A stretch of 64,000 nt of DNA from Zhongshania aliphaticivorans. GTDB lineage: Bacteria > Pseudomonadota > Gammaproteobacteria > Pseudomonadales > Spongiibacteraceae. The DNA is taken from the NCBI RefSeq assembly GCF_902705855.1, contig NZ_CACSIJ010000012.1, forward strand, positions 42,497 to 106,496, written 5' to 3'. Positions 40,516 to 61,241 of this stretch are shown here, one piece after another. Every line of letters begins with the position of its first letter. Position 1 is the first letter of the stretch. A program made the translations under genes and the position numbers. The notes beneath the pieces were generated by a model that saw nothing but the letters and a program-made list of their open reading frames with translations, ran no database searches and was not told the DNA's origin.

Positions 40516-40551
40516 TTCACTAATCTGCTTTGGCGCATTGTCTGCTCCGTA

Positions 40552-41985
40552 TTATTTTGTCGCTTTTTTCGGAATGTAAATTGCTTTTGGCTGGGTAAAT
40601 TCCATCAGTCCCGCCATGCCATTTTCTACACCAAAGCCAGACTGCTTGTGACCGCCCAAAGGTGTCACTGGTGTCGATTGCAAATTTTGATTAATCCACA
40701 CCGTGCCGGTATCAAGGCGCTTTGCCACCGCTAGGGCTTTATCAATATCTGACGACCACACCGCACCGGCTAAACCGTATTCGCTGTTATTCGCCCGCTC
40801 AATAACCTCATCTAAATCGCTGTATCGCAGCAAAGGTAATATCGGCCCAAACGCCTCTTCAGTTACGACTCGTGAATCTTCTGGAGGATTATCGACCAAA
40901 GTTAAGGGTAGAAAATAACCACTACCTTGGGGTACCGCGCGCCCCTCTAACAAGGTCAATCCGTCTGCCCGCGCCTCGTCCATCAGGGCTTTGACACGCA
41001 AATACTGGGGTTTGTTTTGCACTGGGCCAAATACCGTATCGGGCTCCATACCATCCCCGACTTTTAAAAACTTGGCTAGGCCATGTAGCTTATCCCGCAG
41101 CGCATCGTATATATCATCGTGAACATACATGCGTTTGGTCGCGATACAAATCTGCGCAGTGTTATAGAACGCCCCCATGAATAATTCCTGGGCGACTTTG
41201 TCGACATCAACATCTGGAAGAATGATTGCCGCATCATTGCCACCTAATTCCAGTGTTAGACGCTTAAGATCTTGTGCCGCCGAAGCCATAATACGTTTAC
41301 CGGTTGCGGTTGAACCAGTAAACGATATTTTTGCAAAGCCGGGATGCGCAGTCATTAAAGGCCCGAGAGCATCGCCGCCAGTAATAATATTCAGCACCCC
41401 CGCCGGAAACACATCGCGCAGAATTTCGCCAATTTTCAACATCGCCAGTGGCGTAAACGGAGATGGTTTTAATACCATCACATTACCAGTAAGCAAGGCG
41501 TGGGAAATTTTCCAGAACGCTAATAATACTGGGAAATTCCAAGGCACAATTGCACACACCACACCCAGGGGTTCGTGATGCACCTCTACTCGACGGGTTT
41601 CAGAGTCTTCAGTGATATCCACGGGTATGTCGAACTTGGCCATGCTCATTAGCCAATGACTGGCACCCAGTATTTCTTCCTTAGCAAATTTAAGAGGACG
41701 CCCCTGTTCCAGGGTAAATATTTCAGCTAATTCGTCGGCGTGTGCAGCAATTACTTTTGCTGCATTTATTGCCGCCGCTGCGCGCTCTTTGTGCGGTGTT
41801 GCACGCCATTTCGGAAACGCAGCCGCCGCCGCGCTAACCGCCATATCAAGCTCAGCAGCCCCCGCAACCGGCGCCTGCGCAAACACCTCACCGGATGCAG
41901 GGTTTACCACACCCATTGTCTCTACGCCGGCAACACCTTTGCCGTTGATCGTCATCGTATAGGGTGTGGCTCGTAACTGACTCAT
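40552..41985 (-). CDS. Aldehyde dehydrogenase (NAD-dependent)
   Basis: A 477-residue ALDH. LTLELGGNDAAII carries the catalytic Glu; NTAQICIATKR carries the nucleophile Cys; PWNFPVLL is the NAD region. It oxidises an aldehyde to an acid, a plausible step after the GMC alcohol oxidoreductase. Start ATG follows TGAGG. It is separated from the acyl-CoA ligase by a strong terminator (41997-42027), so it has its own promoter or depends on readthrough. Confidence 0.92.
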   Translation of the reverse strand: MSQLRATPYTMTINGKGVAGVETMGVVNPASGEVFAQAPVAGAAELDMAVSAAAAAFPKWRATPHKERAAAAINAAKVIAAHADELAEIFTLEQGRPLKFAKEEILGASHWLMSMAKFDIPVDITEDSETRRVEVHHEPLGVVCAIVPWNFPVLLAFWKISHALLTGNVMVLKPSPFTPLAMLKIGEILRDVFPAGVLNIITGGDALGPLMTAHPGFAKISFTGSTATGKRIMASAAQDLKRLTLELGGNDAAIILPDVDVDKVAQELFMGAFYNTAQICIATKRMYVHDDIYDALRDKLHGLAKFLKVGDGMEPDTVFGPVQNKPQYLRVKALMDEARADGLTLLEGRAVPQGSGYFLPLTLVDNPPEDSRVVTEEAFGPILPLLRYSDLDEVIERANNSEYGLAGAVWSSDIDKALAVAKRLDTGTVWINQNLQSTPVTPLGGHKQSGFGVENGMAGLMEFTQPKAIYIPKKATK

Positions 41986-41996
41986 ATCAACCTCAT

Positions 41997-42027
41997 AAAA
42001 AAATAGCCGACAAGATCACTTGTCGGC
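41997..42027 (-). terminator. Strong intrinsic terminator between acyl-CoA ligase and ALDH genes
   Basis: On the minus strand GCCGACAAG, TGAT, CTTGTCGGC (a 9-bp perfect stem) is followed by TA and seven T (41997-42003). The ALDH ribosome site begins only a few bases later, so this could also work as an attenuator. Confidence 0.85.
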
Positions 42028-42053
42028 GAAATAAAATCGTCCACAAATTTGCT

Positions 42054-43577
42054 TTAACGCACTTTACTTAATTCCACATGGGCATTGGCGTATTTAACCC
42101 GCAGTGCGGGTTTCGCGATTTTGCCCGTTGCCAAACGGGGCAATGCCTCGCCTTCCAAGACCACATAACGCGGAACTTTAAATGCGCTCAAATGGGTATT
42201 GCAGTGCTGAATAACAGTCTCAATGGTGAGATCGTCGCGGCCATAAATAATCGCTAGCGGGGTTTCACCAAAGCCGTCGTCTTTAGCTGCAATGACCGCC
42301 ACCTCATTCACGCCGTCTATCTCTGAAATAACGCGCTCCAACTCCGCAGCTGAAATATTTATACCGCCAGAGATAATAATATCCTTGAGGCGATCTAACA
42401 TGGTGAGCAGGCCATTCTCATCTACCATGCCTAAATCACCGGTGTGCAGCCATCCATTCACCAGCGTCTTCGCTGTCGCCTCTGGATCGTTCCAGTAGCG
42501 GGTCATTATGCCCGCCCCTTTAATCACGATTTCACCTGGCGTATTTGGCCCGCAGAATTCGCCTTTATCGTCCACAATAGCAATCCGCGTAAACGCTGAG
42601 CCACGACCACATTTTTCTGGATCGCTGAGTGCCGCAGACCTTGAGTTGACTGTCGCCTGCCCTCCCGCTTCTGTCTGGCCGTAGAGCTGACGTAGCGTAA
42701 CGCCCTTCTCCAACCACGTGTCTAGCAGTTGATTAGAAACCCTCGCGCCGCCAACCAGACAGTAACGCAAGCTAGCAAGATCCGCCGCCGCAAAACTCTC
42801 GCTGGCCGCCATCCGCTCGAAGAATATAGGCGCGCCCATCATCACGGTAATACCGTGCTCCTGAATCATTTGAATAGCGCGCAGCGGCTCAAAAGCCTCT
42901 TCAACAAAGATCGTGCCGCCATAAGCCAAATATTGCGTTGTAACCACGTAACCCGCAGAGGTGCACAGCGGGCCAAACAACAGCACTTTTGCCTTATCAA
43001 TTGAGTATGGTTCGGCAATGGCGGTTTCCGACACATAGGAACTTAAGGTGCGATGGGAATACACCACGCCCTTGGGGTGCCCAGTTGAACCACTGGTTGG
43101 AATAATAACGACTTCGTCATCGAGACCAATTTCCGGACGCGGAGTGCTATTAGCGCTGGCCCCGTTTCTAAATTGATCAATCACACTGATATCAAACACC
43201 GTGCAGCCTTCCACTTTGGCCTGCGTAGCATTCGCCAGCTCGGCGCGTGCGGTGTCGTGAAAAATAAACTTCGACTGGTAGCGCTCACCAACCATATAGG
43301 CGACTTCGCTTACCGTAAAACGGGGATTCACCGGCGCCAAAATACCGCCAGACAACATCACCGCCTGCGACAGCACTATCCATTCCATGCTGTTGGTGGC
43401 CAAAATCGTAACGCGCTCGCCGCGCTGTAAACCTTCAGCTATAAGCCAGTCCGCAATCGCCTCGGCCCAACAGTTAAGCTCACTGTATGTGATTTGATCC
43501 TTTGCAGTGACAATTGCGGCAGTGTCTTTACGATCAACTGCCCACCACTTAAAAATGTCTATTAGTGTACTGCTCAC
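42054..43577 (-). CDS. Acyl-CoA synthetase (AMP-forming)
   Basis: A 507-residue adenylate-forming enzyme. P-loop IIPTSGSTGHPKGVVYSH, then YGQTEAGG, GWLHTGDLG, and the late MLDRLKDIIISGGINISAAELE and ATGKIAK are the classical motifs. It activates a carboxylic acid to its CoA ester. GTG start with GGAGGAA before it. It is transcribed divergently from an acyl-CoA dehydrogenase; the shared 325-bp region holds the 19-bp operator. Confidence 0.92.
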   Translation of the reverse strand: MSSTLIDIFKWWAVDRKDTAAIVTAKDQITYSELNCWAEAIADWLIAEGLQRGERVTILATNSMEWIVLSQAVMLSGGILAPVNPRFTVSEVAYMVGERYQSKFIFHDTARAELANATQAKVEGCTVFDISVIDQFRNGASANSTPRPEIGLDDEVVIIPTSGSTGHPKGVVYSHRTLSSYVSETAIAEPYSIDKAKVLLFGPLCTSAGYVVTTQYLAYGGTIFVEEAFEPLRAIQMIQEHGITVMMGAPIFFERMAASESFAAADLASLRYCLVGGARVSNQLLDTWLEKGVTLRQLYGQTEAGGQATVNSRSAALSDPEKCGRGSAFTRIAIVDDKGEFCGPNTPGEIVIKGAGIMTRYWNDPEATAKTLVNGWLHTGDLGMVDENGLLTMLDRLKDIIISGGINISAAELERVISEIDGVNEVAVIAAKDDGFGETPLAIIYGRDDLTIETVIQHCNTHLSAFKVPRYVVLEGEALPRLATGKIAKPALRVKYANAHVELSKVR

Positions 43578-43902
43578 GACTTCCTCCGACGGGCCAACCC
43601 TTGGTTATACTCTTTATATTTATGACTAAAGACGGCCATTCACCCGAAAATACTGCAGGGGGAAATATCACGCCTTCAATATAGCTCTTTTACGCGCGCC
43701 AAGATTATCCTCCAACGCCAATTTTCTCAGTAAGCTCCACCAATATGAGTAATTACAAGGTAGATTAAAACTGAGTAAAACCAAGTCTTGCAGCGCACAA
43801 CAAGATAATCTAATCTAATTAGATTAATAGCTGCCGTCAACAACTACGTCATGTCACGCTCGGCAAATTGACTCACTAAACGATACAACGCAGGACTCAG
43901 CA
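43578..43902. other. 325-bp divergent control region of acyl-CoA ligase and acyl-CoA dehydrogenase
   Basis: It holds the 19-bp inverted repeat at 43807-43825 and a 16-bp perfect palindrome TAATCTAATTAGATTA (43811-43826) overlapping it. No gene is seen. Confidence 0.6.
43807..43825. promoter_or_regulatory. Operator copy 1: AATCTA-N7-TAGATT
   Basis: AATCTA (43807-43812), seven bases, TAGATT (43820-43825): perfect arms. It lies 78 bp before the dehydrogenase start. The spacer itself is ATCTAAT, which produces an overlapping second palindrome. Three other copies share the arms and the spacer length (47685, 53539, 55694). Confidence 0.65.
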
Positions 43903-45129
43903 ATGAATATTGAATGGACCGCCGACGAACTAAAATTCCGCGACGAAGTGCGCGATTTCTTCAAACTGGAATTAAGTGAGGACATTCGAGCCGCTGGAAA
44001 ATTAATGACCAGCGTGTATTCAGACCATGAACTGTCGATGAAATGGCAGCACAAATTAGTCGCCAAGGGCTGGGCCGCCCCCTCTTGGCCTGTGGAATAC
44101 GGCGGTTGCGACTGGACGGTTGCACAGCATTATATTTTCGCCCGCGAGCGCGCACTTGCCGGCGCACCACCATTATCGCCAATGGGCATACAAATGTGTG
44201 CCCCGGCCATTATTTGCTTTGGCACACCCGAACAAAAAGACTTCTTCCTACCCCGTATGCTTAGCGGTGAACATTTTTGGTGTCAGGGCTACTCGGAACC
44301 CGGTTCCGGCTCAGACCTGGCCTCACTGCAAATGCCCGCCGTAGACGACGGCGATCATTTCATTTGCAATGGTTCAAAAATATGGACCACCCACGCCGAT
44401 GAAGCCAACTGGATTTTTTGCCTAGTACGCACCACCAAAGCAAGTAAACCTCAGCTGGGCATTACATTTTTAGTGATCGACATGAACACCCCCGGCATTG
44501 AAGTGAAACCGATTATTTCACTCACCGGTGAGCACATTCAAAACGAAGTATTTTTCCAAGATGTACGCGTACCAAAAACCAATGTTATTGGTAAGGTCGA
44601 TGAAGGTTGGACCGTGGCCAAATACCTGCTCGAATTTGAGCGCGGTGGCGCCGCTTATGCGCCGCTCATGCAAATCCGCTTAGAGGAAATTCGTGACTTC
44701 GCCGCGACCATTCCCGGTGACAGCAGCCCTCGCCTTATTGAGGACCCGCTCTTCGCCGCTAAACTCGCCCAAGCAGAAATAAAGGCCGCCACCTTAGAAA
44801 TGTATGAATTACGAACCATGTCGGCCATTTCCGCCGGCGGCTCACCGGGAACATCTGCATCGGTAATGAAAATACTGGGTACCGAATTACAGCAACTGGT
44901 GAGCGAAGTTGCCTTGGAGGCCAGCGCGGCCTACGGCCATAGCTACCAACCCCAAGCCTGCGCCCCCGGTGGCGCCACCATTTATCCGCATCAAGAATCA
45001 GGCCTAGAAGGCCCACTCGACGCCGCACTGGCTCCGCTGCGCTACTTTAACGAGCGCGCCGGCAGTATTTATGCGGGTTCGAATGAAATACAAAGAAATA
45101 TCTTAGCGAAGGCTGCATTGGGGCTGTAA
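43903..45129 (+). CDS. Acyl-CoA dehydrogenase
   Basis: A 408-residue FAD enzyme. QGYSEPGSGSDLASLQM and TTHADEANWIFCLVRT are present; the end YAGSNEIQRNILAKAA has the catalytic-region pattern. It is alpha-type (starts MNIEWTADELKFRDEV) and may pair with a beta-type subunit such as that at 49313-50446. It is transcribed divergently from the acyl-CoA ligase with operator copy 1 between them, and ends convergently with the TonB receptor. Confidence 0.92.
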   Translation: MNIEWTADELKFRDEVRDFFKLELSEDIRAAGKLMTSVYSDHELSMKWQHKLVAKGWAAPSWPVEYGGCDWTVAQHYIFARERALAGAPPLSPMGIQMCAPAIICFGTPEQKDFFLPRMLSGEHFWCQGYSEPGSGSDLASLQMPAVDDGDHFICNGSKIWTTHADEANWIFCLVRTTKASKPQLGITFLVIDMNTPGIEVKPIISLTGEHIQNEVFFQDVRVPKTNVIGKVDEGWTVAKYLLEFERGGAAYAPLMQIRLEEIRDFAATIPGDSSPRLIEDPLFAAKLAQAEIKAATLEMYELRTMSAISAGGSPGTSASVMKILGTELQQLVSEVALEASAAYGHSYQPQACAPGGATIYPHQESGLEGPLDAALAPLRYFNERAGSIYAGSNEIQRNILAKAALGL

Positions 45130-45462
45130 AGCCCCTCCGATTATATTTGAGTTTAGAATAGCAATAACCGCTCATAGCGTTTGGCCAACCGTTGGCTGAA
45201 GACGATGCGTTGGACAGCTCGCAGATAAATCACGCTGTGCCAGAGCTAAAGCCGCGCATAGCCCGCACGACCAGCCGACTCACTGAACGAAATATACCCA
45301 CACTCATTCATTGAAAATTATCGCTAAAGATTTTATCTATACTTACGTTTGCATTTACGAGCGGCAGAAAATAAAAACCATTTGTTAGAATCAGTAAAAA
45401 GCCATCGTAACTCTCGCTACAATGGCTATTATTAATTTCCGACTTTTAGTATATGGGCGTTA
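45130..45462. other. 333-bp convergent intergenic region
   Basis: It lies between the dehydrogenase (plus) and TonB receptor (minus) 3' ends. It holds the receptor terminator (45396-45427) and some short inverted repeats (CCAAC/GTTGG near 45183). I see no gene. Confidence 0.5.
45396..45427 (-). terminator. Terminator of the TonB receptor gene
   Basis: On the minus strand AGCCATTGTA pairs with TACGATGGCT (ten pairs with one G-T), loop of eight, then five T (45400-45396). Confidence 0.75.
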
Positions 45463-47607
45463 CTAGAACCGGAACCCGACCTCAACACCGTACGTCGCTG
45501 GCATACCGTATTGCTGTAACATCGCTGCACTCTGACCTAGCACCTGCACTAAATATTCTTCATCAGTTACATTATTACCGTAAATAGAAACGCTATAGCG
45601 CTCATTTTCAGGTGTCCATGTAGCGCGCAGATTCAGCAATGCATAAGCATCTTGGTGTGCATCATTCGCGGCATCAAAATAGAATTTAGACGAATAATAG
45701 TAGCTACCAAAAAATGTGAGCATGCCGTTATTTAAAGGTTGATCATAAGTTGCAGAAAGATTGGCCGTCGCTTTAGGTGTACGCAATAGTTCGTTACCGC
45801 CTGCATCTATGCTCGCCGTCGTATAAGCATCACCTGGATTGCCGGTACCAATATAGGCTGGCGCATCAGGAAAATCATCGTATTCCGACTTGGTATAAGC
45901 GGTATTAAAGTCGATCTTCAGCTTTTCGTTAACGAGATAAGATAGCTGAAAATCCGCTCCGTAGATGGTCGCCGCTGCCGCATTAACGAGAATCGAACTA
46001 GCATCGACATATCGATTAACTTGAAGCTCAGAATAATCGTAATAGAAAGCCGCAGCCTCTAAAGTCCAAACATCTTGCTGAGTTTTATAGCCAACTTCAT
46101 AGGCAATAATTTCTTCAGGGTCAACCGGCACGGTACTAAAACCTGCCGCATTAAACACACCAGATTTATAGCCTTTGGTAACTGACCCATACATTGAACT
46201 GTCTTCATTTAGACTATGACGCAATACCACTCGAGGTGAAAAATCGGTGAAGGTTTCTTCCTCGGTAGTGTACGGAATCGCCTGCGGAACGCTTTCAAAA
46301 TTTACCGTTAGCGTATCGGAGCTATAGCGACCGCCCAATGTTAAGAACCAAGATTCCGAAAGGTCGTAAGTTGCATCAGCAAATACCGCATAGGCTTTGG
46401 TCTTCTGCCCATCTGCAAAGAAATTATCTATTTGCGCGCCAGAAGCTGTTAAATTAAAGAATGGAAATTGCGCGTCATTCTCAAAATAATACAGGCCAGC
46501 TACCCATTGCAATGGTCCAGAACCTGTAGATGTGAAGTTAATCTCTTGAGAAAAACTGTCGTCCTCTACCTGATAATGACCGTGAAAAATTGGCAGGGAG
46601 GTAGCATCGTAGTCTTGCTTACTCACTACCGTCTCATCATGATAGCCAGTGTACGAAGTCAATATAAAGCTATCATAGTCGACCTCAACTTTTATGCTGA
46701 AGTCATCAGACTTTGCAGTAAATGCTAAATCAGAATCTACTGACACAAGGCCACGACGCGAATAAATATCAATAGGTTCGCCATCCGTGTGAACAGGGTC
46801 TACTGTAGGATTACTAGAATCATTGGCAACAGCTCTACCCTCATAAGCGGTAACTCCGTTAGCGCTGCCGTCATTTCTGTCGGTATGTGCATAGTTCAGT
46901 AATACTGAAACGTTATCGGTGGGCTCGATAAGTACTTTTATACGCGCACCCCAGTTTTCTAACTCATCAACATTCTTACCCGTATACCTGTTTTTAACAA
47001 AACCATCGTTTTCATGGTAATACGCAGCAACACCCAAGGCGACCTTATCACTAACACCACCAGAACCAGCAAAGGTAGTACGTAAATCGCCATAACGTCC
47101 ATAGCGCACTTTTAATGCGGCTTCCGGCTCGTAGCTAGGCGTAGTTGTGGTAACTAATATAGCGCCCCCTGTTGCGTTACGACCGAACAAGGTTCCCTGC
47201 GGCCCCTTTAACACCTGTACTGACTCAATATCAGCCATTTCAAAAGCACTAGTCAACGCACTTGAATGATAAATTCCATCGACATAGGTAGCAACCGACG
47301 CACTCAAACCTGGCCCCGCAACTGAACTACCCACGCCACGCAGGGTAGGCTGTGAAAACCCACCCGAAAGATCCACCCGTAAGCCAGGCACTGTTTGTGC
47401 TAGATCTTGCGTAGAAATAATGCCAGCTTGCTCTAAGTCCTCACCGCTTGCACTAGCAATAGAAATTGGCACATCAATATTTCGCTCAGAACGCTTTTGC
47501 GCGGTAACAACGACTTCCTCTATTACTGTATCACTTTGAACTCCATGAGAAAAAGCCATAGGGAAACTCATGGCGGATATTAAGACACTACGTGTTGTTA
47601 TTTTCAT
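45463..47607 (-). CDS. TonB-dependent outer-membrane receptor of the catabolic cluster
   Basis: A 714-residue receptor. The signal peptide is residues 1-25 or so. TonB box-like VIEEVVVTAQKRSERN follows, then IRGVGS-like LRGVGSSVAG, VDGIYHSS, VLKGPQGTLFGRN and TGGAILVTTTTP of the plug. The end EVGFRF is a barrel terminus. It probably imports the cluster's hydrophobic substrate or a bound form. Operator copy 2 lies 78 bp upstream, so expression likely follows the cluster. Confidence 0.92.
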   Translation of the reverse strand: MKITTRSVLISAMSFPMAFSHGVQSDTVIEEVVVTAQKRSERNIDVPISIASASGEDLEQAGIISTQDLAQTVPGLRVDLSGGFSQPTLRGVGSSVAGPGLSASVATYVDGIYHSSALTSAFEMADIESVQVLKGPQGTLFGRNATGGAILVTTTTPSYEPEAALKVRYGRYGDLRTTFAGSGGVSDKVALGVAAYYHENDGFVKNRYTGKNVDELENWGARIKVLIEPTDNVSVLLNYAHTDRNDGSANGVTAYEGRAVANDSSNPTVDPVHTDGEPIDIYSRRGLVSVDSDLAFTAKSDDFSIKVEVDYDSFILTSYTGYHDETVVSKQDYDATSLPIFHGHYQVEDDSFSQEINFTSTGSGPLQWVAGLYYFENDAQFPFFNLTASGAQIDNFFADGQKTKAYAVFADATYDLSESWFLTLGGRYSSDTLTVNFESVPQAIPYTTEEETFTDFSPRVVLRHSLNEDSSMYGSVTKGYKSGVFNAAGFSTVPVDPEEIIAYEVGYKTQQDVWTLEAAAFYYDYSELQVNRYVDASSILVNAAAATIYGADFQLSYLVNEKLKIDFNTAYTKSEYDDFPDAPAYIGTGNPGDAYTTASIDAGGNELLRTPKATANLSATYDQPLNNGMLTFFGSYYYSSKFYFDAANDAHQDAYALLNLRATWTPENERYSVSIYGNNVTDEEYLVQVLGQSAAMLQQYGMPATYGVEVGFRF

Positions 47608-47684
47608 ACCTCTGCTCCCAGATTAAATACATACGATTGACCCGACCGATACGTCATCAAAATCAATCGATTAACTAAATAGCC

Positions 47685-47703
47685 AATCTAACAATGTTAG
47701 TTT
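47685..47703. promoter_or_regulatory. Operator copy 2: AATCTA-N7-TAGTTT
   Basis: AATCTA (47685-47690), N7 ACAATGT, TAGTTT (47698-47703). One mismatch from perfect symmetry. It lies 78 bp before the TonB receptor start, the same distance as copy 1 to its gene. Confidence 0.6.
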
Positions 47704-47846
47704 AACGAGCGTAACCCGTCAATTAAGGCGTGGTAGGGATTTATACTTACGGTTATATTTTTCGAGTTGTAATCAAAAATTATCAACTAGCGAAAATCAT
47801 TACCCATCAAATAAACGAGATAGCTGACAACGCGGGAAACCATCTT

Positions 47847-49277
47847 CTACCGCGTTTTTTTAAGCTGCATTTTCAGCATTATATTTATAGTACTTCCGTA
47901 AGGTGGATCCATCATCGCGCCGAGTTTTTTATACCAGCCTTGTTCAAAAACTGATTTGGCGTGTGAAAATCTTTTGAAGCCCGATCCGCCGCCCCAATAA
48001 CTACCCATACCGCTATGTCCGACACCACCGAAGGGAAGATCAGACATCATAAGCTGCATCATCACTTCGTTAATGGCTAATCCACCAGAGCTGGTTTGAC
48101 TTAGGATAGCCGCCTTCTCTTGCTCGTTATCACCAAAAAAATACAGCGCCAAGGGGCACTCGCCCTTGTTGACGTAATCAACGGCGTCTTGAAATGATTT
48201 ATAGGTTTTAATAACCAAAATCGGCCCGAAGATTTCCTCCTGTATTAGGCGGCTGTCCTCCGGCGGATTAACTACAATCGCTGGCGTAAATTGACGGCGC
48301 GCATCGGTGGCGCCCACATCAACTTTAATAATATTACATCCCTTGGCTTCGGCATCAGCTATTAGCTCATGCATGCGTTTGTAATGAGCATCGGTGGCGA
48401 TCGATGCATAATCTGCCGCCGCCTTGTCTAGCGGGTACATTTTAGTCACCGCAGCCTTAGCCTGCTCAACAAATTCATCGAGCTGCGCCTCTGGAAGCAA
48501 AACATAATCAGGAGTAATGCAGCCCTGTCCAGAGTTAATGAGACGACCGCTCATCGTCCGCGACGCGGTATAAGCGATATCAGCACCGGCGCCAATAATC
48601 ACCGGAGACTTACCACCCAACTCCAGCGTGACCGGCACTAAATTACGCGCGGCTGCAGCCATAATATGTTTAGCGGTGCCAGCACTACCGGTGTACATCA
48701 AATGATTAAAAGGTAACTCTGCGAAAGCACGGGAAACCTCAACTTCACCGGTAACAATCGCCAACTCACTCACATCAAAATATTCAGGTAATTTTGTCGC
48801 CATCAGCTCTGCCGCATGGGGCGAAAACTCAGACACCTTGACCATAACGCGATTGCCGGCACAAAAGGCGTCCATGCTAGCAACTATCGCCATTGCCAAG
48901 GGCCCATTCCAGGGCACCATAACGCCGACCACACCGAGAGCTTGATATTTTATATAGGTTTTCGCACCCATAAGGTTAAAGGGGAAATCCGGTTTACGAA
49001 CCTCATCCTTCATCCAGTTTTTTAAATTCTTTTTTATTGATTTGGCGTGATTGATAACGGGGATAATTTCTACTGCTTTGATAAAGGAATCTGGTTTATG
49101 GATCCAATCCTTTTTAGTGGCTTCAACAATGGCATCTTGATTATCGATTAAAAAGTCCACACAGCGTTCAACACGATCTATACGCGTCTGAATACTCGCC
49201 TCTCCGCCCTGCATAAAACTTTCGCGCTGAATACGCAAAATGTCGCCTAGCGATTCTGGACTATTTGCCGCCATCAT
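47847..49277 (-). CDS. Aldehyde dehydrogenase, coniferyl-aldehyde type
   Basis: A 476-residue ALDH. VTLELGGKSPVII carries the Glu, NSGQGCITPDYVLL the Cys. GDILRIQRESFMQ at the start and the overall pattern fit the coniferyl/fatty-aldehyde (ALDH3-like) subgroup, which acts on aromatic and long aldehydes. It is the last gene of the minus-strand set Rieske, GMC, acyl-CoA dehydrogenase, ALDH. Confidence 0.9.
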   Translation of the reverse strand: MMAANSPESLGDILRIQRESFMQGGEASIQTRIDRVERCVDFLIDNQDAIVEATKKDWIHKPDSFIKAVEIIPVINHAKSIKKNLKNWMKDEVRKPDFPFNLMGAKTYIKYQALGVVGVMVPWNGPLAMAIVASMDAFCAGNRVMVKVSEFSPHAAELMATKLPEYFDVSELAIVTGEVEVSRAFAELPFNHLMYTGSAGTAKHIMAAAARNLVPVTLELGGKSPVIIGAGADIAYTASRTMSGRLINSGQGCITPDYVLLPEAQLDEFVEQAKAAVTKMYPLDKAAADYASIATDAHYKRMHELIADAEAKGCNIIKVDVGATDARRQFTPAIVVNPPEDSRLIQEEIFGPILVIKTYKSFQDAVDYVNKGECPLALYFFGDNEQEKAAILSQTSSGGLAINEVMMQLMMSDLPFGGVGHSGMGSYWGGGSGFKRFSHAKSVFEQGWYKKLGAMMDPPYGSTINIMLKMQLKKTR

Positions 49278-49312
49278 ATTTTTATACTCCCCAATTATTG
49301 TATGGCCTAGAA

Positions 49313-50446
49313 TTAGCTCGCGCGCAAAGCCGCGTGGCGCACAAGATGATAATCTGCACTTCCAAATTCAGATTCAATAAGCGTCGCGCGCTTAAAATAA
49401 TGACTTATCGCCAGCTCGTCAGTCATACCCATACCGCCGTGAAGCTGCACCGCATTTTGGCCTACAAAGCGGCAGGCTTTACTGACGGCAACTTTGGCAG
49501 CAGAGGCAGCAATGGCGCGTTCATTTATTGACGAGGATAAATTTAAGGTCACCAAATACGCCGCCGAACGGGCCATTTCGATTTCCATATACATATCGAC
49601 CATACGATGCTGCAGGGCCTGAAAGTTTGATATTGGCTGACCAAATTGCTTACGCTGCTTGGTGTAGGCAACGGTGTCTTCGTGCAGTACCGACATCACC
49701 CCCACGGCCTCTGCAGAGAGCGCGGCTATTGCTTCATCGCCGGCTTGTTCAATATTCGCAAGCGCTTCACCTACGTCGCCGATAAGAGCCTCGGCACCTA
49801 ATTGCACATTATTAAATTCAACATCCGCGGCACGCCGACCATCAATCGTGGGGTACTCACTTATGCGAATGCCAGTGCTAGCTTTATCGAGCAAAAATAA
49901 AGAAATACCGCTGCTATCGCCTGGCTCGCCGCTGGTGCGCGCCGTCACTAACAAATGCGAGGCCCAAGGCGCCGCCATCACCACCGATTTTTTACCGTTT
50001 AGCAACCAACCATTGCTATTCGCAGTAGCGGTACTAGCAAGCGATTTAAAGTCGTAGCGTGCATTAGGCTCGCCCCATGCAAATGCCACAATTCGTTCAC
50101 CGGCAGCAATTTTAGCAAGCGTCTCATCAGCAGTAGCGCCACCAGCACGAGCCAACATACCGCCACAGATAACGACGGTTTCCAGATAAGGCTCTAGTAC
50201 CAAACTGCGTCCGAACTCTTCCATAACCAGCATGGTGCTTACGGCATCCATACCCATACCGCCCACTCGCTCCGGCAAGGTCATCGCGGTAATCCCTAAG
50301 TCTTCTGCAAAGGCCTTCCAAATTTCGGGGCGCCAGCCATCAGCCAAACTCGCTTGGCGACGCGCTTCAAAATGGTAATTGTCTTGCAGATAACTTTGCA
50401 GACTTTGGCGGATGAGGTTTTGTTCTTCGGTGAAAGAGAAATCCAT
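49313..50446 (-). CDS. Acyl-CoA dehydrogenase, beta-type
   Basis: A 377-residue protein starting MDFSFTEEQNLIRQSL (ATG 50446). The longer frame to 50473 begins with a less likely start. It resembles the beta-type partners of paired acyl-CoA dehydrogenases, with QLHGGMGMTDELAISHYFKRA near the end. Motifs of the alpha type (YSEPGSGSD) are absent here, replaced by FAWGEPNARYD, as in such beta subunits. It may form an alpha2beta2 enzyme with the dehydrogenase at 43903 or 39331. Confidence 0.88.
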   Translation of the reverse strand: MDFSFTEEQNLIRQSLQSYLQDNYHFEARRQASLADGWRPEIWKAFAEDLGITAMTLPERVGGMGMDAVSTMLVMEEFGRSLVLEPYLETVVICGGMLARAGGATADETLAKIAAGERIVAFAWGEPNARYDFKSLASTATANSNGWLLNGKKSVVMAAPWASHLLVTARTSGEPGDSSGISLFLLDKASTGIRISEYPTIDGRRAADVEFNNVQLGAEALIGDVGEALANIEQAGDEAIAALSAEAVGVMSVLHEDTVAYTKQRKQFGQPISNFQALQHRMVDMYMEIEMARSAAYLVTLNLSSSINERAIAASAAKVAVSKACRFVGQNAVQLHGGMGMTDELAISHYFKRATLIESEFGSADYHLVRHAALRAS

Positions 50447-50506
50447 AAAATCTTGTTCCGCTAATAAAACCAAATAATGTCAAAATGCCTTCGCGAACCG
50501 CTCGCT

Positions 50507-52111
50507 TTAAGCATCGCGCAAAATAATATCCGCCGCGCGCCACGCCATGGCCATCGTCGGCCCATTGGTATTGCCCGACGGTATTTGCGGCATTATCGAT
50601 GTGTCCATTACGCGTAAACCAGACACGCCTCTTACTCGTAACGCTGGGTCAACCACAGATTCGGCATCCTGCCCCATACGGCAACTACCCACCGCGTGAT
50701 AACCGCAGCTACCGTAGCAGTCATATGCCGCGATAATGTCGTCGTCAGAAACACACTTCGGCCCAGGGTAGGTTTCTTCGGAAATTAATTCGTTTAACGA
50801 TTGCTGAGCAGCATAGCGACGTGCGATATGTACCGTTTCAATCATCAAGGCGCGATCTTCCTCGGTACTGCGATAGTTAGGCTTCAAACTCGGCATCGCA
50901 TTTGGGTCACGGCTATTGATATGTATTTCACCTTTTGACGTTGGGCGCAGCGGATAACCGACGATCCCCATGCCCGGAAAGGTTTCTAATTTCTCGCGAT
51001 TGGTTTCAAAATCAAAACTAAATGGCGCAACAAGAAATTGAATGTCTGGCCGCGGCACTGATTTACTGGATTTAAACCAAGCACCCACTTCATAGGCACC
51101 AGAAGACATCGGGCCGGTCTTCTTTATAAAATACTGGAAAACGTTTTTCAGTAAGCGCCAGCCGCTATATTCAACATTCTCTGACAGGGGCTGATTTAAT
51201 TTCCATTGGGCAATAATTCCCCGATGTTCGAGTAAGTTTTTGCCAACTTCTGGGCTGTTGTGGACCACCGGAATATTCAAGCTATTCAACAAATCTACGG
51301 GGCCGACACCTGAGCGCTGCAAAATGCCCGGTGACGCCATTGCGCCACCGGCAATAATAATTTCTTTATTCGCAGAGTAGCTGCGCTTCTCAGCGGCTTT
51401 TCCGACCAGCGCATCAACACTCACTGCGCGCTTATCTGCAAACTGCACCTTGTCTACCAAGGCTTTTGTCACAATCGTTAAATTGGGGCGATCTCTAACC
51501 GGATCGATAAACGCCTTTGATGCGCTCTGACGCTTTCCATCCCAGATTGTGCGCGAGGCGTAACCAACACACTCGGCGTCAGTTGGTGCATTAACGTCTT
51601 CAACCCGCGGCAACCCCATTGCCGCAGCAGCATCAATCATCGCCTCGGTCAAACGGTTGCGACGATTAGCTAAACTGACTTTTTGTGGCCCCTTGCCACC
51701 TCTGGTTTCGCCCTCGCCCAGCTCGTGGCACTCCAGCGCTTTATAGGCTGCGCCAATATGCTCCCAAGACCAGTCATCGCTTGATTGCGCTGCAATTTCA
51801 TTAAAATCAGAGGGCTGGCCGCGAACATACATTAGGCCGTTCATTGAGCTAGAGCCGCCCATCACTTTGCCACGCGCCCACACTTCTTCTTTGAAACCAT
51901 TGCCCGCCTCGGGGTCAGCCGGATATGCCCAAATATGATTTGGGTCTGTCATCAACTTACCCAAACCTTTAGGCATATGCACAAGCGGGTGGCTATCTTC
52001 GCCACCCGCCTCTAACAGCAGAACGCTATTCTTTGGATTTTCCGAAAGCCGATTAGCCAGCACACAACCAGCAGCGCCTGCGCCAACCACAATATAGTCA
52101 AAGCTATTCAT
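50507..52111 (-). CDS. GMC-family alcohol oxidoreductase
   Basis: A 534-residue flavoprotein. N-terminal FAD motif YIVVGAGAAGCVLANRLSE, then LLEAGG, GGSSSMNGLMYVRG, and a late catalytic His in YGSCGYHAVGSCRMG. It belongs to the choline-dehydrogenase-like branch that oxidises primary alcohols such as long-chain, terpene or polyethylene-glycol alcohols. It probably oxidises the P450 or Rieske product to an aldehyde for the ALDH downstream. Confidence 0.92.
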   Translation of the reverse strand: MNSFDYIVVGAGAAGCVLANRLSENPKNSVLLLEAGGEDSHPLVHMPKGLGKLMTDPNHIWAYPADPEAGNGFKEEVWARGKVMGGSSSMNGLMYVRGQPSDFNEIAAQSSDDWSWEHIGAAYKALECHELGEGETRGGKGPQKVSLANRRNRLTEAMIDAAAAMGLPRVEDVNAPTDAECVGYASRTIWDGKRQSASKAFIDPVRDRPNLTIVTKALVDKVQFADKRAVSVDALVGKAAEKRSYSANKEIIIAGGAMASPGILQRSGVGPVDLLNSLNIPVVHNSPEVGKNLLEHRGIIAQWKLNQPLSENVEYSGWRLLKNVFQYFIKKTGPMSSGAYEVGAWFKSSKSVPRPDIQFLVAPFSFDFETNREKLETFPGMGIVGYPLRPTSKGEIHINSRDPNAMPSLKPNYRSTEEDRALMIETVHIARRYAAQQSLNELISEETYPGPKCVSDDDIIAAYDCYGSCGYHAVGSCRMGQDAESVVDPALRVRGVSGLRVMDTSIMPQIPSGNTNGPTMAMAWRAADIILRDA

Positions 52112-52216
52112 TTATTATTGTCCCCACAAGCCACTGAACTTGCTCAGAATCCGCTGCGGTAATCTTTTAGCCGCAGCAGAACTTGGTATTTTTATTAGCG
52201 CGATAATTGTCGACGC

Positions 52217-53395
52217 CTAGCGATCTTCTGGCGCCAAATACGACTCGATAGAGTCGTGGAACGGCCCGATCATTTCCTCAAGCCCACCAAAATACACCTC
52301 TTTAATCGCGCCAGAGTTCATACCTTCCTGCTGCAATTCCGCCGCTCTAAAGTCTTCGCCACCAAATACTTCATCAATAAGAGCAAAGGACTTCGCATAC
52401 AAAGCTTCTGCTTTTTCACTATCTGCAGGGCCTTTTACCAGCATGTAGTAATCGACCACGGTACGATCTTTCGCGCGCGGCATTAAAATCATAACGCTGA
52501 AATAATACGGACTGGTGATGACCACGGTATTTGGGAATACCAAATAGGCGTGGGTAACAAACTTATGAAGATTGTCGACTTCTTCTTGCAGCATTTCTGG
52601 CTTGAAATTCGCTTTGCCCGAGGTTTGGCGCTGGTGATCGCCAAGATGGGTATACACACTCGGCACATCCACAAACATGCTGGCAATGGAGTTCGCGTGT
52701 AATCTTTGTATGTGATATGCCTCTAAGAATGGCTCCATCACAAACTTCCAGTTGGTTTTTAAATCGTACATGCGGCGCCCATAGACGTGCATTTTATCTA
52801 AACCAAATGACTCTAAATCTTCTGCAACCTGATCGGTTCCCTCTATTTGTTCTGGTGCATAATCAGGGTCAAGCCCAACCCAAATGAAACCACCGGATTC
52901 GTAGCAGGTTAACGCGACCAAACCTAAGTCGCATTTCTTGGCACTGGGGAATGTTTCTTGGCGAGGAATGCCAACCAGAGCGCCATCCATGCCGTAAGTC
53001 CATGCGTGATATGGGCATGAAACCCGCCCTGCTTTAACAGGCTTGTCGCCCTCTACTAATTTTGAACCACGGTGCCGACAGGCATTGATAAATGCATGGG
53101 CAACGCCATTGCGATCTCGGGTTAACAGGAGCGGAACACCGTAGCAGTCCTGCGGCAATGACATGCCCGGCTCGGGTAAGTATGCAGACGGTGCAGCGAC
53201 CACGGGCACCTTTTTGAAAAGGTCGCGCATTTCTGCCTCGAAGCGCGCCTCACTTAAATAAACCGATGTAGGCCGACTCGCCTCGGTTGTTGGAATTTCG
53301 GCGTCTTCTGGCGCACGCAATTTTGAAATAGCGTCCCATTGACTGTCAGTCAAACCTAGGGGAGCTTTCTCTGCCACTTTTTTGCTTTGCTCCAT
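52217..53395 (-). CDS. Rieske non-heme iron oxygenase, catalytic (alpha) subunit
   Basis: A 392-residue oxygenase. The Rieske cluster is C106, H108, C127 and H130. The mononuclear iron site includes H228 and H233 in EAYHIQRLH. It resembles the homotrimeric alpha-only oxygenases acting on aromatic or aliphatic ring compounds. No matching beta subunit lies nearby; electrons may come from the ferredoxin and reductase at 59-61 kb or from elsewhere. It is divergent from the P450; operator copy 3 lies between. Confidence 0.9.
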   Translation of the reverse strand: MEQSKKVAEKAPLGLTDSQWDAISKLRAPEDAEIPTTEASRPTSVYLSEARFEAEMRDLFKKVPVVAAPSAYLPEPGMSLPQDCYGVPLLLTRDRNGVAHAFINACRHRGSKLVEGDKPVKAGRVSCPYHAWTYGMDGALVGIPRQETFPSAKKCDLGLVALTCYESGGFIWVGLDPDYAPEQIEGTDQVAEDLESFGLDKMHVYGRRMYDLKTNWKFVMEPFLEAYHIQRLHANSIASMFVDVPSVYTHLGDHQRQTSGKANFKPEMLQEEVDNLHKFVTHAYLVFPNTVVITSPYYFSVMILMPRAKDRTVVDYYMLVKGPADSEKAEALYAKSFALIDEVFGGEDFRAAELQQEGMNSGAIKEVYFGGLEEMIGPFHDSIESYLAPEDR

Positions 53396-53766
53396 ATCAC
53401 GTCCTCTCTTATTCGTATGCGACCAGTCTTAATTTGCCAGTCCCAGGCACAACTCTATGCATTTAAGCAGTAGGGTAAACTCGCGAGTAAACCGCACAAT
53501 ATCGATTACTCATCATGAAGCCAGACTAAAAGAGCATTTATCTAATGTCAATAGTTTTAGGCGCACATTCGAGCATGTAACTCAAAGCCTTTACAAAACT
53601 AATAACGATAGATAACATGGTTTTCAACTGACGCCGCAGACCCCTTCTACATCTGTAGCGTCGGCGAAATAAGACCCACAGACAGAAGCGTGTCGTCGTG
53701 TTCGACGGCGTCTAGACCTAAAATAATTGAATATACTCAGGCCACAACTTGAGAGGGATTATCGTC
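53396..53766. other. 371-bp divergent control region of the Rieske and P450 genes
   Basis: It contains operator copy 3 (53539-53557) and a short palindrome ACTCGCGAGT (53479-53488) flanked by direct GTAAAC repeats. I see no open frame with a ribosome site. Confidence 0.55.
53539..53557. promoter_or_regulatory. Operator copy 3: TATCTA-N7-TAGTTT
   Basis: TATCTA (53539-53544), N7 ATGTCAA, TAGTTT (53552-53557). Its spacer is one base different from copy 4 (ATGACAA). It lies 144 bp from the Rieske start and about 210 bp from the P450 start. Confidence 0.6.
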
Positions 53767-54966
53767 ATGCACAACAAAGTAAGTATTCCAGACCACATAC
53801 CGCCGCACCTTGTGTTTGATTACAACTACCACGGCGACGCCAGAGTTAACGCGGAAGTTCATACCAGCCTAGAAACACTACATGACGACGCCCCCGATGT
53901 ATTCTTTACCCCTTACAACGGCGGGCACTGGGTAATCACTCGTCACGACACAATCTCTGACATTGTTCGCGACCCCGAACATTTTTCAGCGAGCGAAATG
54001 CAGATACCCCGCATCGAAAACCCACCGATGTTTATTCCGCTGAATCTCGATCCTCCAAAGAACATACCTTACCGTCAGGCGCTAATGCCCGCCTTTTCAC
54101 CCAAGGCGATAAAAGCGCTTGAAGGTAAAATACGTTACTGGGCCGGTAGAATTATCGACGACGCCATTGCAGGCGGTGAATGTGATTTTATAAAAGATAT
54201 TTCTTCGGTATTTCCCGTTACCGTGTTTATGGAGTTTATGGGCATGCCACTGGATAGACTGCGCGAATTTCGTGCGCTGTCCGATGCATTTTTTAGCACT
54301 AACTCTCAAGAAGAAATCCATCAGTTATCCATGCAAATTATTGGCGTGATGACAGAAATTGTCGAACAGAAACGTGCCAATCCGGCGGACGATTTAATTA
54401 GTCATATTCTCACCGTAAAAATAAACGGCGAGCCCATTAGTATGGAAGAAATACAAAACATGTGCTTCCTGCTTTTTTTGGGTGGCATGGACACCGTCAC
54501 CAATGTTACCGGCTTTACGTTTAGGCAATTGGCAAATGAGCCCGCACTGCAGCAACGCCTAGTGGATAACCCCGCTGACATTACTAAATTTGTCGACGAA
54601 GGGATTCGTAGCTTTGGTGTTATTAGTACTCCACGCCTAGTCGCAAAAGATTGCGAAAAATTTGGCGCAAATTTTAAAGCTGGCGAGATGGTATTGTGCC
54701 TACTGCCGATATCAGGTCGGGATGACCGTAAAAACAGCAATCCAAATACGTTCAACATAGACCGAGAAAAAGACGACGGCCACACATTGACGTTCTCAAT
54801 AGGCCCCCATCTTTGTATTGGGCACTTATTAGCCCGCGCAGAAATCCGCATATTGACGGAAGAATGGGTAAAACGTATTCCCAGCTTTAAAATAAAAGCC
54901 GGAACCACGTTAAGCTTCCGGATGGGCTTTGCGCTGGCTCTTACCGGCCTGCCATTAAGCTGGTAA
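53767..54966 (+). CDS. Cytochrome P450, CYP101-like
   Basis: A 399-residue class I P450. I-helix GGMDT (239-243), ExxR pair E278/R281, heme loop FSIGPHLCIGHLLAR with Cys350. The pattern is close to CYP101/CYP111-type terpenoid hydroxylases. The ATG at 53767 with GAGAGGG before it is preferred to the TTG at 53749. The ferredoxin reductase and putidaredoxin-like ferredoxin of the same cluster would supply electrons, as in the camphor system. Confidence 0.9.
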   Translation: MHNKVSIPDHIPPHLVFDYNYHGDARVNAEVHTSLETLHDDAPDVFFTPYNGGHWVITRHDTISDIVRDPEHFSASEMQIPRIENPPMFIPLNLDPPKNIPYRQALMPAFSPKAIKALEGKIRYWAGRIIDDAIAGGECDFIKDISSVFPVTVFMEFMGMPLDRLREFRALSDAFFSTNSQEEIHQLSMQIIGVMTEIVEQKRANPADDLISHILTVKINGEPISMEEIQNMCFLLFLGGMDTVTNVTGFTFRQLANEPALQQRLVDNPADITKFVDEGIRSFGVISTPRLVAKDCEKFGANFKAGEMVLCLLPISGRDDRKNSNPNTFNIDREKDDGHTLTFSIGPHLCIGHLLARAEIRILTEEWVKRIPSFKIKAGTTLSFRMGFALALTGLPLSW

Positions 54967-54975
54967 GCGAAACGC

Positions 54976-55009
54976 TAAGCATACGGGCTCCCCAGAGCCC
55001 GTATGCTTA
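54976..55009. terminator. Long bidirectional hairpin between P450 and GST genes
   Basis: A 15-bp perfect stem, arms at 54976-54990 and 54995-55009 (TAAGCATACGGGCTC and its complement), loop CCCA. There is no long T-run, but the stem is the strongest hairpin seen here. Confidence 0.7.
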
Positions 55010-55020
55010 CAATTCAACTT

Positions 55021-55629
55021 TTAACTTTTTGCCCTCGCCGCCTGATATGCCGAACGACTTTGCAATCGATCAAAATAAGCCGTAATGGTTGGCGTAAAAT
55101 ATTTTTGATAGCCAAACAAACTGCTCAATAGCAGCGCGTAACCCACCGAAATATCCGCCGCGGTAAATCGCTCACCACTCAAATATGTTTTGCCTTGCAA
55201 ACCGGCATCTAACACATTCAGCCGCTCCTGCAAGAACGCAGTGAAGTCGTCGCCCACGACAGGTAAGCGTTGAGGCTTTGGTACAAACAAGGTGTAACGC
55301 AAAATCATTGCTTGAATATTGGCCAGCGACGCCTCACCAAAATGCATCCAATTTAACCAACTACCGTAATCAACTTCGTCAGGCGTGACCCGCAACTCAC
55401 CACCGTCATAGCGATTAAGCAGATACTCCAGTATGGCAATGGATTCGCTCATTTTGGTATCGCCATCCACCAAATACGGCAAGGTGCCAAGCGGATTTAT
55501 CGAAAGAAATTCTGGCGCCTTTACCCGCGGCGGAAACGGTAGAACGTCTAAATCGTAGGAAACCCCCAACTCTTCAAGCAACCAAACACAGCGTAAAGAG
55601 CGGGTATCGACAGCATGATATAGCTTCAT
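55021..55629 (-). CDS. Glutathione S-transferase
   Basis: A 202-residue GST. The N-terminal thioredoxin-like domain has LPYLVDGDTKMSESIAILEYL for glutathione binding; the helical C-terminal domain has FTAADISVGYALLL. It may detoxify reactive epoxides or use glutathione in ring opening. Operator copy 4 lies 65 bp upstream, so it seems part of the cluster regulon. Confidence 0.88.
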   Translation of the reverse strand: MKLYHAVDTRSLRCVWLLEELGVSYDLDVLPFPPRVKAPEFLSINPLGTLPYLVDGDTKMSESIAILEYLLNRYDGGELRVTPDEVDYGSWLNWMHFGEASLANIQAMILRYTLFVPKPQRLPVVGDDFTAFLQERLNVLDAGLQGKTYLSGERFTAADISVGYALLLSSLFGYQKYFTPTITAYFDRLQSRSAYQAARAKS

Positions 55630-55693
55630 TTTTTATTCCTGTAATAATAATTAGAACGCGTAATTATTTTAGTTAATAGCATGAATCAAAAAT

Positions 55694-55712
55694 AATCTAA
55701 TGACAATAGATT
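55694..55712. promoter_or_regulatory. Operator copy 4: AATCTA-N7-TAGATT
   Basis: AATCTA (55694-55699), N7 ATGACAA, TAGATT (55707-55712): perfect arms. It lies between the divergent GST and DUF35 genes. Confidence 0.65.
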
Positions 55713-55908: not shown

Positions 55909-56349
55909 GTGAAAGGTGTCGGAGCAGATGAACCGTATTGGCTGGCACTCAGTGCCGGTCAACTCAAACTGCCAGAATGTAGCGCATGTGGCAAAGCGCA
56001 TTGGCCCGCAGTGTGGCGCTGTGGTGAGTGCGGTAGCTGGGAACAACAATGGACGTCTTTTGAGTTAAGCGGCACTATTTTTAGCTGGGCGCGCACTTGG
56101 CATGAGTTCGGTGCATCCAAGGAGTTTGGCCTCCCCTACGTGAGCGTCGTAGTCGAGATCGATAACGCTGACGGCAGACGTTTATTGGGCACCATCGCCG
56201 GCAATGCGGAAAGCATCCGCATTGGTGATCGGGTTCACGGCGAAGTCATTAGCGTCAATATTGAAGACGAAAACATACCCGCACTGCGCTGGTATTTAGA
56301 CGGCAACTCCTCTACCTCTAAAGCATCTAACTCGGGAGCAACACTATGA
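55909..56349 (+). CDS. DUF35 OB-fold protein with zinc ribbon
   Basis: A 146-residue protein. The zinc ribbon is CSACGKAHWPAVWRCGECG (four Cys), followed by the OB-fold of DUF35. Such proteins bind a thiolase-like partner: in steroid side-chain degradation ChsH2-DUF35 with Ltp2 performs retro-aldol cleavage. The GTG start follows AGGAG. It overlaps the thiolase-like gene by four bases, supporting a complex. Confidence 0.9.
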   Translation: MKGVGADEPYWLALSAGQLKLPECSACGKAHWPAVWRCGECGSWEQQWTSFELSGTIFSWARTWHEFGASKEFGLPYVSVVVEIDNADGRRLLGTIAGNAESIRIGDRVHGEVISVNIEDENIPALRWYLDGNSSTSKASNSGATL

Positions 56350-57509
56350 ACCGCGCATCCCAGGGTAAAGTCTCTGTCGCCGGCATTGGGCTACGACAAT
56401 ACAAGCGCGGCGGTGCGCCGCTGCCAGAACAAGGCATATTAATCAGAGCAATTATCGACGCCTGCGAAGACGCCGGATTTAATCCCGCTGATATTGACGG
56501 CTTTGTATCCTACGGCGATGACAAAAATGAACCCGTGCGCCTAATGCCAGACCTAGGCACCAAAGAGTTACGCTGGAACTCGCAGGTTTGGGGCGGTGGC
56601 GGTGGCGGAATTGCAGCGGCTTTCGGTCAAGCGGCGGCGGCAATCATTAGCGGCCAAGCCAATGCCGTCATCGTGTTTAGAGCCCTAGCGCAGGGTAATA
56701 GCGGCCGCATGTCTGCCGCGGTCATGCGCCACCATCTTAATGATCACATCGTGGGTGCCGGCTTAATTGCGCCGGCCCAAATTTGCGCTCTGCGCGCCCA
56801 GCGTATGTTCGAGTATTATCAAGTACCGCACTCCGTCACCGAAGAACTGGTAAAAGCCTCTTACTACCACGGCTCAAAAAATCCGGAAGCCAGCTCATTC
56901 GGCAAAGAGCTCGATATCGAAGCCTATCGCACCGGACGCTGGGTCACAGAGCCGTTCAGATTGTTCGATTGTTCGCGTGAAAACGACGGCGCGGGGGCAC
57001 TACTGCTAGTTTCTACCGAGCGGGCCCGCGACCTTAAAAAGCCACCCATTAGGCTGCTTGGGGTTGCCAACGGTGCGAGCCAAGGCTGGGGAGATCTGAT
57101 CGAAAATGATACCGACTACGCATCTGCCGGTTTCAAGCCTGTCGCAGATCGCCTGTGGGAGCAAACCGGCTTACAGCCAAAAGATATTGATGTTGTCCAG
57201 TTATACGAAAACTTCAGCGCCCAGGGTATCGCCTCATTAATTGATCACGGTTTTTGCAATTATGAGAACGTCGCCGAGTTCGTGAAATTTGAAAACCTCA
57301 TTGCAGACGGTGGTAAATTGCCGGTGAACACCTCCGGCGGCAACTTTGCGCAGGGCTTTATTCACGGCGTAGGCACCCCGATAGAGGCCGTTCGGGTATT
57401 GCGTGGTGAGTCAGCAAACCCCGTCACCAATGCCAAAACCTGCCTACTTGCTGGCGGGCCAGGCGCACCTACCGTTAGCTCGGCAATTTTTGGTGTAGAT
57501 GATCGTTAA
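56346..57509 (+). CDS. Thiolase-like protein (Ltp2/SCP-x type), probable retro-aldolase
   Basis: A 387-residue thiolase-fold protein. Where thiolases carry the nucleophilic Cys, this one has a glycine run (WGGGGGGIAAAF), so it is not a normal thiolase. Late VVQLYENFSAQG and TSGGNFAQGFIHG match the Ltp2-like group, where a Tyr pair catalyses retro-aldol cleavage. With the DUF35 protein it probably splits a beta-hydroxy, alpha- or beta-branched acyl-CoA. This fits a branched substrate that normal beta-oxidation cannot finish. Confidence 0.88.
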   Translation: MNRASQGKVSVAGIGLRQYKRGGAPLPEQGILIRAIIDACEDAGFNPADIDGFVSYGDDKNEPVRLMPDLGTKELRWNSQVWGGGGGGIAAAFGQAAAAIISGQANAVIVFRALAQGNSGRMSAAVMRHHLNDHIVGAGLIAPAQICALRAQRMFEYYQVPHSVTEELVKASYYHGSKNPEASSFGKELDIEAYRTGRWVTEPFRLFDCSRENDGAGALLLVSTERARDLKKPPIRLLGVANGASQGWGDLIENDTDYASAGFKPVADRLWEQTGLQPKDIDVVQLYENFSAQGIASLIDHGFCNYENVAEFVKFENLIADGGKLPVNTSGGNFAQGFIHGVGTPIEAVRVLRGESANPVTNAKTCLLAGGPGAPTVSSAIFGVDDR

Positions 57510-57599
57510 TTCGCTTTTCTAGGTTATTGAGCATGGCACATCGCATCTAAGGCATGCAAAATACGGGCGACTTAACTCTCAGCTCCTGCGAGTAAACCA

Positions 57600-57613
57600 C
57601 GCTGTGCACAGCG
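57600..57613. other. 14-bp palindrome upstream of the first crotonase gene
   Basis: CGCTGTGCACAGCG is self-complementary and lies 41 bp before ATG 57655. It could bind a regulator or be chance. It is unlike the 19-bp operator. Confidence 0.3.
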
Positions 57614-57654
57614 CGGCACTTCTCGACAGACGCTGCCACAAAGGATGATAAAAG

Positions 57655-58452: not shown

Positions 58453-58479
58453 ATAACCACCATATCAGGACGGTCTTTG

Positions 58480-59367: not shown

Positions 59368-59394
59368 CTTAGTACCTATAACTTAGTACCTATA
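59367..59394 (+). repeat. 14-bp tandem duplication at the 3' end of the crotonase gene
   Basis: ACTTAGTACCTATA occurs twice in a row, starting at the last base of the stop codon. A third partial copy with one difference (AGTACTTATA, 59357-59366) lies inside the coding end. It is a recent slippage-type duplication. Confidence 0.8.
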
Positions 59395-59468
59395 AAACAT
59401 AATCCATGAGTCTTACGGCAGCCCGCAAGACAACATGAAACTGAACAAGAGCCTCCTGGAAATTACTT

Positions 59469-61073: not shown

Positions 61074-61241
61074 TCCCTCCATCCAATACTACAAACACCC
61101 CCTCCCCGCTCAATCTTTCACCATCCTCAGATGCATCCTCCCAACAAAAACTAAGCGATCAATTAAATATATGCTAGGATTCGCATAAGTCACTATAATA
61201 TTCGACCATCATCGCCATTTATATTGGAAAAACAGGCCGAC

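Follow-up and report, generated by a model that had tools for sequence, protein, structure and literature searches.

A 19-bp palindrome recurs in the control regions of a catabolic gene cluster of Zhongshania aliphaticivorans, and it very probably serves as operator for a single repressor of the TetR type, TetR1 (197 aa, with a TetR_N domain; 38636–39229, + strand), to which binding is assigned here from comparative sequence evidence. The motif is nearly restricted to this putative regulon in the genome, is conserved before orthologous genes in related genomes, lies on predicted core promoters and co-occurs with TetR1. The window, i.e. the whole stretch of DNA analysed, comprises 64,000 nucleotides of contig NZ_CACSIJ010000012.1, and 18 members of the genus were compared, designated here by G-numbers with G000 being the genome that contains the window.

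Five copies were located in the window. The preliminary description had named four (43807, 47685, 53539 and 55694), whose positions, seven spacer bases and placement between genes are all right, but a fifth at 53596–53614 had been overlooked. Its account of the arms also stands for 43807 and 55694 (perfect) and for 47685 (one mismatch), but not for 53539, where the arms TATCTA and AAACTA differ from the pattern at two positions instead of one. Operator 1 (AATCTAATCTAATTAGATT, 43807–43825) lies between the divergent genes for an acyl-CoA ligase (42054–43577, - strand) and the acyl-CoA dehydrogenase ACAD2 (43903–45129, + strand), and Operator 2 (AATCTAACAATGTTAGTTT, 47685–47703) precedes the gene of a TonB-dependent outer-membrane receptor (45463–47607, - strand); the 78-bp offsets reported for ACAD2 and the receptor are correct. 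Operator 3 (TATCTAATGTCAATAGTTT, 53539–53557), before the Rieske oxygenase gene (52217–53395, - strand), shares its intergenic region with Operator 3b (TATCTATCGTTATTAGTTT, 53596–53614, - strand), which precedes the cytochrome P450 gene (53749–54966, + strand). Operator 4 (AATCTAATGACAATAGATT, 55694–55712), identical in sequence in G001, G003 and G017, separates the divergent genes for glutathione S-transferase (GST; 55021–55629, - strand) and DUF35/thiolase (55909–57509, + strand). The similarity noted earlier between the spacers of Operators 3 and 4 (ATGTCAA and ATGACAA) arises because the Rieske- and GST-facing strand reads TTGACA and TTGTCA, respectively, a -35 box embedded within the operator. 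The conserved unit is a 19-bp palindrome, approximately W-A-W-C-T-A-W-Y-N3-R-W-T-A-G-W-T-W, in which part of the nominal spacer is conserved as well.

The exact pattern WATCTA-N7-TAGWTT was found at just seven places in the 3.95-Mb genome, all intergenic and with no spread into coding DNA: the five in the window plus C12:183651 and C16:203087. The reversed control pattern gave 3 matches, and for 5 of 7 exact copies to fall within 12 kb by chance has a probability of about 2e-9. When one mismatch was tolerated, the whole genome contained 74 matches versus 76 for the reversed control; as this count is no higher than that of the reversed pattern, the additional sites were rejected, and the exact seven are therefore the signal. 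Relaxing the search in the window to two mismatches likewise gave no excess over shuffled sequence (20 versus 15.1 ± 5.1), which is the one result that agrees with the repeats being chance inverted repeats of AT-rich DNA. That explanation, to which we assign a negligible probability, is refuted by the near restriction of the exact motif to the regulon in the genome scan, by its conservation in seven genomes and by the position weight matrix (PWM) scan against reversed sequence described below; the repeat is real. No published operator of this sequence was found in a limited literature search, which left most subscription journals outside its scope.

Conservation in related genomes, proposed earlier as a check, was borne out: the motif precedes orthologous genes in all 7 of the 18 genomes that carry the cluster (G000, G001, G003, G005, G007, G015 and G017). 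Close orthologues of the cluster thiolase (at least 79% identity) and P450 (at least 67%) occur in exactly these seven genomes and no others. In 495 kb of cluster loci, a PWM scan gave 51 sites at ≥14 bits and 47 at ≥16 bits, whereas reversed sequence gave 2 and 0, respectively; the first PWM had been built from the seven G000 sites, so that it would miss sites with a differing core. Nearly all of these sites precede orthologous cluster genes. Four of the 51 fall within reading frames as called, but for two or more of these the position is close to the 5' end, the start having probably been called too early. The TonB receptor orthologue is also preceded by sites in G003, G005 and G015. When orthologues with about 70% identical proteins are compared, the operators and the -35 box of the P450 gene are conspicuous against DNA that has diverged, and in the widely diverged Rieske–P450 region of G015 the conserved blocks are the two operators and this -35 box. 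Further sites were encountered: 1) in G001, another TetR gene and a second TonB receptor gene are separated by a region with two adjacent operators (L060:12627-12668); 2) in G007, a receptor related to this second receptor also has a weak site upstream; 3) in G006, which has neither TetR1 nor the cluster, a regulator gene that lies among flagellar genes is preceded by a site, which was taken as a chance occurrence.

Most copies coincide with a predicted core promoter of sigma-70-like type, and for a given gene the register is largely the same from species to species. In 20 of the 32 site-gene contexts, such a promoter, matching at ≥9 of 12 positions, overlapped the operator and was oriented in the direction of the gene; the expectation from shuffled sequences was 4.0 ± 1.8, none of 500 shuffles reached 20, and the antisense strand gave 4. 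At Operator 1, the leftward predicted promoter TTGACG-17-TAGATT has its -10 box inside the operator, and on the ACAD2-facing side no good promoter was found. The ligase genes of G000 and G003 and the GMC oxidoreductase genes of three genomes share one arrangement, with the -10 box inside the operator and TTGAC starting 15 bp before it. Operator 2 is overlapped by the -10 box of TTGACG-17-TAACAT, and TTGACG starts 19 bp before the receptor operator in both G000 and G003. For the Rieske gene, the operator contains the -35 box TTGACA (in one copy TTGAAA) in G000, G003, G017, G001, G007 (two copies) and the first G015 copy (G015a); in the second (G015b), no -35 box is inside the operator. Operator 3b occupies the 17-bp spacer that separates TTTACA from TAACAT, a layout shared by G017, G015 and G005 (17 bp) and G007 (18 bp), so that in all five genomes examined for the P450 gene the operator fills the spacer from TTTACA or TTTACT to the -10 box.

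This placement on predicted core promoters points to repression by occlusion, the bound protein blocking the promoter. A minority of TetR-family proteins act as activators, and one could suppose that the protein activates from these sites; we regard this as very unlikely, since it is the -35 box, spacer or -10 box of a predicted promoter that each site overlaps, not the DNA upstream.

A shared repressor for the cluster, as proposed in the preliminary description, is strongly supported by the seven copies in the genome and by their conservation before orthologues in seven genomes. Its further guess, that one of the two flanking TetR proteins is responsible, was narrowed to TetR1 by a co-occurrence comparison that took in these two proteins, TetR1 and TetR2 (TetR_C_9 domain; 61224–61916, + strand). 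TetR1 orthologues (62–99% identity) are present in all seven motif genomes, as well as in G002 and G011, both of which lack the cluster, and G007 contains two TetR1 genes, each with sites 107–142 bp upstream. Since TetR1 accompanies every motif cluster and sites precede both of its copies in G007, it is the most likely regulator. There is no site before the TetR1 gene of the window, so autoregulation is not general.

TetR2 orthologues adjoin the cluster in G000, G003, G015 and G017, closing it in these four genomes, and on this ground the operator could be assigned to TetR2. We consider such an assignment highly improbable: three genomes, G001, G005 and G007, carry motif and cluster without a TetR2 orthologue, and no site is found before the TetR2 gene. 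G004 has a TetR2 relative (55% identity) but no TetR1 orthologue, cluster thiolase orthologue or motif cluster. TetR2 was thus rejected on co-occurrence, being missing from three motif-cluster genomes, and is probably not the regulator of this motif.

It is also conceivable that the protein recognising the operator is another regulator, with its gene elsewhere in the genome, and that TetR1 merely travels with the cluster. TetR1, with the same DNA-reading helix, persists in G002 and G011 although the cluster is absent and no clear operator is present there (no exact motif in G002 and one stray match in G011), and in the draft genome G003 it is on another contig, beside a helicase gene. These observations would fit such a regulator, but we judge it unlikely on two grounds: each of the two TetR1 copies in G007 is preceded by sites, and the core of the motif is tetO-like and fits the TetR-like reading helix of TetR1. 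A weaker site, ATTCTAATAACRATAGTTA, just before the gene for a 108-aa secreted protein, is common to G011 (L077:4973-4991) and G002 (L079:5078-5096); these two genomes look like close relatives, hence their shared site carries no verdict. The TetR1 gene (L073:9176-9769; L074, L075) is located beside the helicase gene in G000, G003, G017, G002 and G011. As this includes genomes that lack the cluster or carry it on a different contig, the place of the regulator looks older than that of the cluster. Outside the genus, a genome scan for TetR1 relatives detected only three full-length loci at ≥68% identity, all from Zhongshania or Spongiibacter, with the remaining matches covering the helix-turn-helix region or little more.

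From Pfam matches and gene order, we infer that the genes facing the operators form several transcription units: i) a leftward unit (39331–43577, - strand) of the acyl-CoA dehydrogenase ACAD1, aldehyde dehydrogenase and acyl-CoA ligase; ii) a leftward unit (47847–53395, - strand) headed by the Rieske oxygenase gene and continuing with GMC oxidoreductase, acyl-CoA dehydrogenase and aldehyde dehydrogenase; and iii) a rightward unit (55909–60689, + strand) encoding a DUF35/ChsH2-like protein, an Ltp2-like thiolase/aldolase, two enoyl-CoA hydratases and a ferredoxin reductase. The closest relatives of the P450 are the CYP101 camphor hydroxylases, and that of the thiolase is a lipid-transfer-protein thiolase of the Ltp2 type. 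The DUF35 protein matches ChsH2 domains, just under the cut-off in the window and over it in G007, and the Rieske protein is closest, though distantly, to carnitine monooxygenase. A reasonable guess is that the substrate is probably a hydrophobic alicyclic or terpenoid-like compound; the Zhongshania literature yielded nothing on it.

Both distant sites in the genome precede plausible co-regulated genes. One is upstream of a two-domain CoA-transferase gene (L008:4988-7393). The other, about 77 kb past the end of the window on the same contig (G000:C12), is about 47 bp before the start of a gene (L007:7717-8061) whose product, a protein of 114 aa, has a signal-like N-terminus and matches no Pfam family. 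Relatives of this protein with a site upstream occur in G005 (64% identity) and G015 (two copies, 34–38%), so it looks like a conserved member of the regulon, representing an unnamed family of small secreted proteins.

In the mechanism that we propose, a TetR1 dimer would sit on the 19-bp palindrome and, where this overlaps the -35 box, spacer or -10 box of a target promoter, would block RNA polymerase. The substrate or a pathway intermediate, perhaps an acyl-CoA, may bind the C-terminal domain and release TetR1, whereupon the genes for uptake (TonB receptor), oxidation, CoA activation, beta-oxidation and the aldolase would be switched on together, and those for the CoA-transferase and the small secreted protein elsewhere in the genome alongside them. 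This would constitute a nearly complete regulon for a catabolic pathway, as yet uncharacterised, of marine Zhongshania: a single repressor and a single operator, together with defined promoters and a defined set of targets that takes in the unnamed secreted protein family. For specialists it would be a clean example of a known repressor type and no surprise; as a naturally altered relative of TetR/tetO, the pair may be useful for studying operator specificity and for building biosensors.

Among known systems, the tetracycline repressor TetR is the closest to TetR1. TetR1 has an N-terminal TetR_N domain (PF00440, E 8.9e-12, 45 bits against a cut-off of 24), and its structural model (pLDDT 85.9, ten helices) is all-helical, with the C-terminal ligand/dimer domain set apart, as in the TetR family. 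TetR structures are the best matches of the model in the PDB (E 1.6e-6, TM 0.70) and fill ranks 1–22 of the fold comparison; by sequence, TetR of classes A, B, D and G are the nearest solved relatives (5mru, E 3e-13). The operator trait of the family, palindromic sites on promoters, was seen here on predicted promoters, with TetR1 as the putative binding protein. The reading helices, APSLYYH in TetR1 and QPTLYWH in TetR, keep Pro, Tyr and His, and the motif has the TAGA of tetO at +4 to +7 with the same centre and register (mostly TAGA, with some TAGT, i.e. TAGW). At +2, where tetO has G, the motif has A in 54 cases, G in 17 and T in 3. For this comparison, the generally known tetO sequence and register were combined with the contacts given below. 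Glutamine commonly reads A. In a pairwise alignment, Arg28 and Gln38 of TetR correspond to Gln33 and Ala43 of TetR1, both invariant in all nine aligned TetR1 orthologues, and Gln33 may be matched with the A at +2, as judged from the alignment rather than from a solved complex. In TetR, hydrogen bonds link Arg28 to G at +2 and Gln38 to A at +3, Tyr42 contacts T at +4, and the substitutions Arg28Ala and Tyr42Ala abolish binding (PMC7102968). It is possible, though we hold it to be doubtful, that TetR1 and the tetracycline repressors share an operator-reading ancestor, the change of Arg28 to Gln together with G to A at +2 being a natural specificity switch around a fixed TAGA core; if so, tetracycline repressors may have been recruited from catabolic regulators like TetR1.

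TetR1 nevertheless differs from TetR in several respects. The tetracycline-Mg contacts His64, Asn82 and His100 of TetR are not conserved, being Ala68, Leu86 and Met104 in TetR1 in a pairwise-only alignment with an N82A mutant chain as template, and TetR1 scores 61 bits against a cut-off of 265 for the curated TetR model NF010319. TetR adjoins a tetracycline efflux gene, whereas the neighbours of TetR1 are helicase and acyl-CoA dehydrogenase genes with no efflux pump, and its proposed regulon is a dispersed catabolic one.

The CoA-dependent genes differ between the camphor system and this cluster. The P450 described here is closest to the camphor hydroxylase CYP101, and at the level of this enzyme and of control by a repressor the proposed regulon can be compared with the camphor oxidation operon of Pseudomonas putida, whose repressor CamR is released by camphor (PMC12442372). 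In the bad-ali clusters of Aromatoleum sp. CIB, which serve the catabolism of alicyclic acids, the divergent promoters likewise share one conserved operator that overlaps -35 boxes, but the regulator BadR, whose inducer is a pathway CoA thioester, is of the MarR type and recognises CAAN4TTG (PMC9795900), in contrast to the TetR-type candidate proposed here. PheR of Sphingobium represses catabolic genes for a hydrophobic substrate, and TonB-receptor genes rise in its deletion mutant (PMC13273656), a combination of targets similar to that of the Zhongshania cluster, although PheR belongs to the IclR family and its site, GCAACG, is unrelated.
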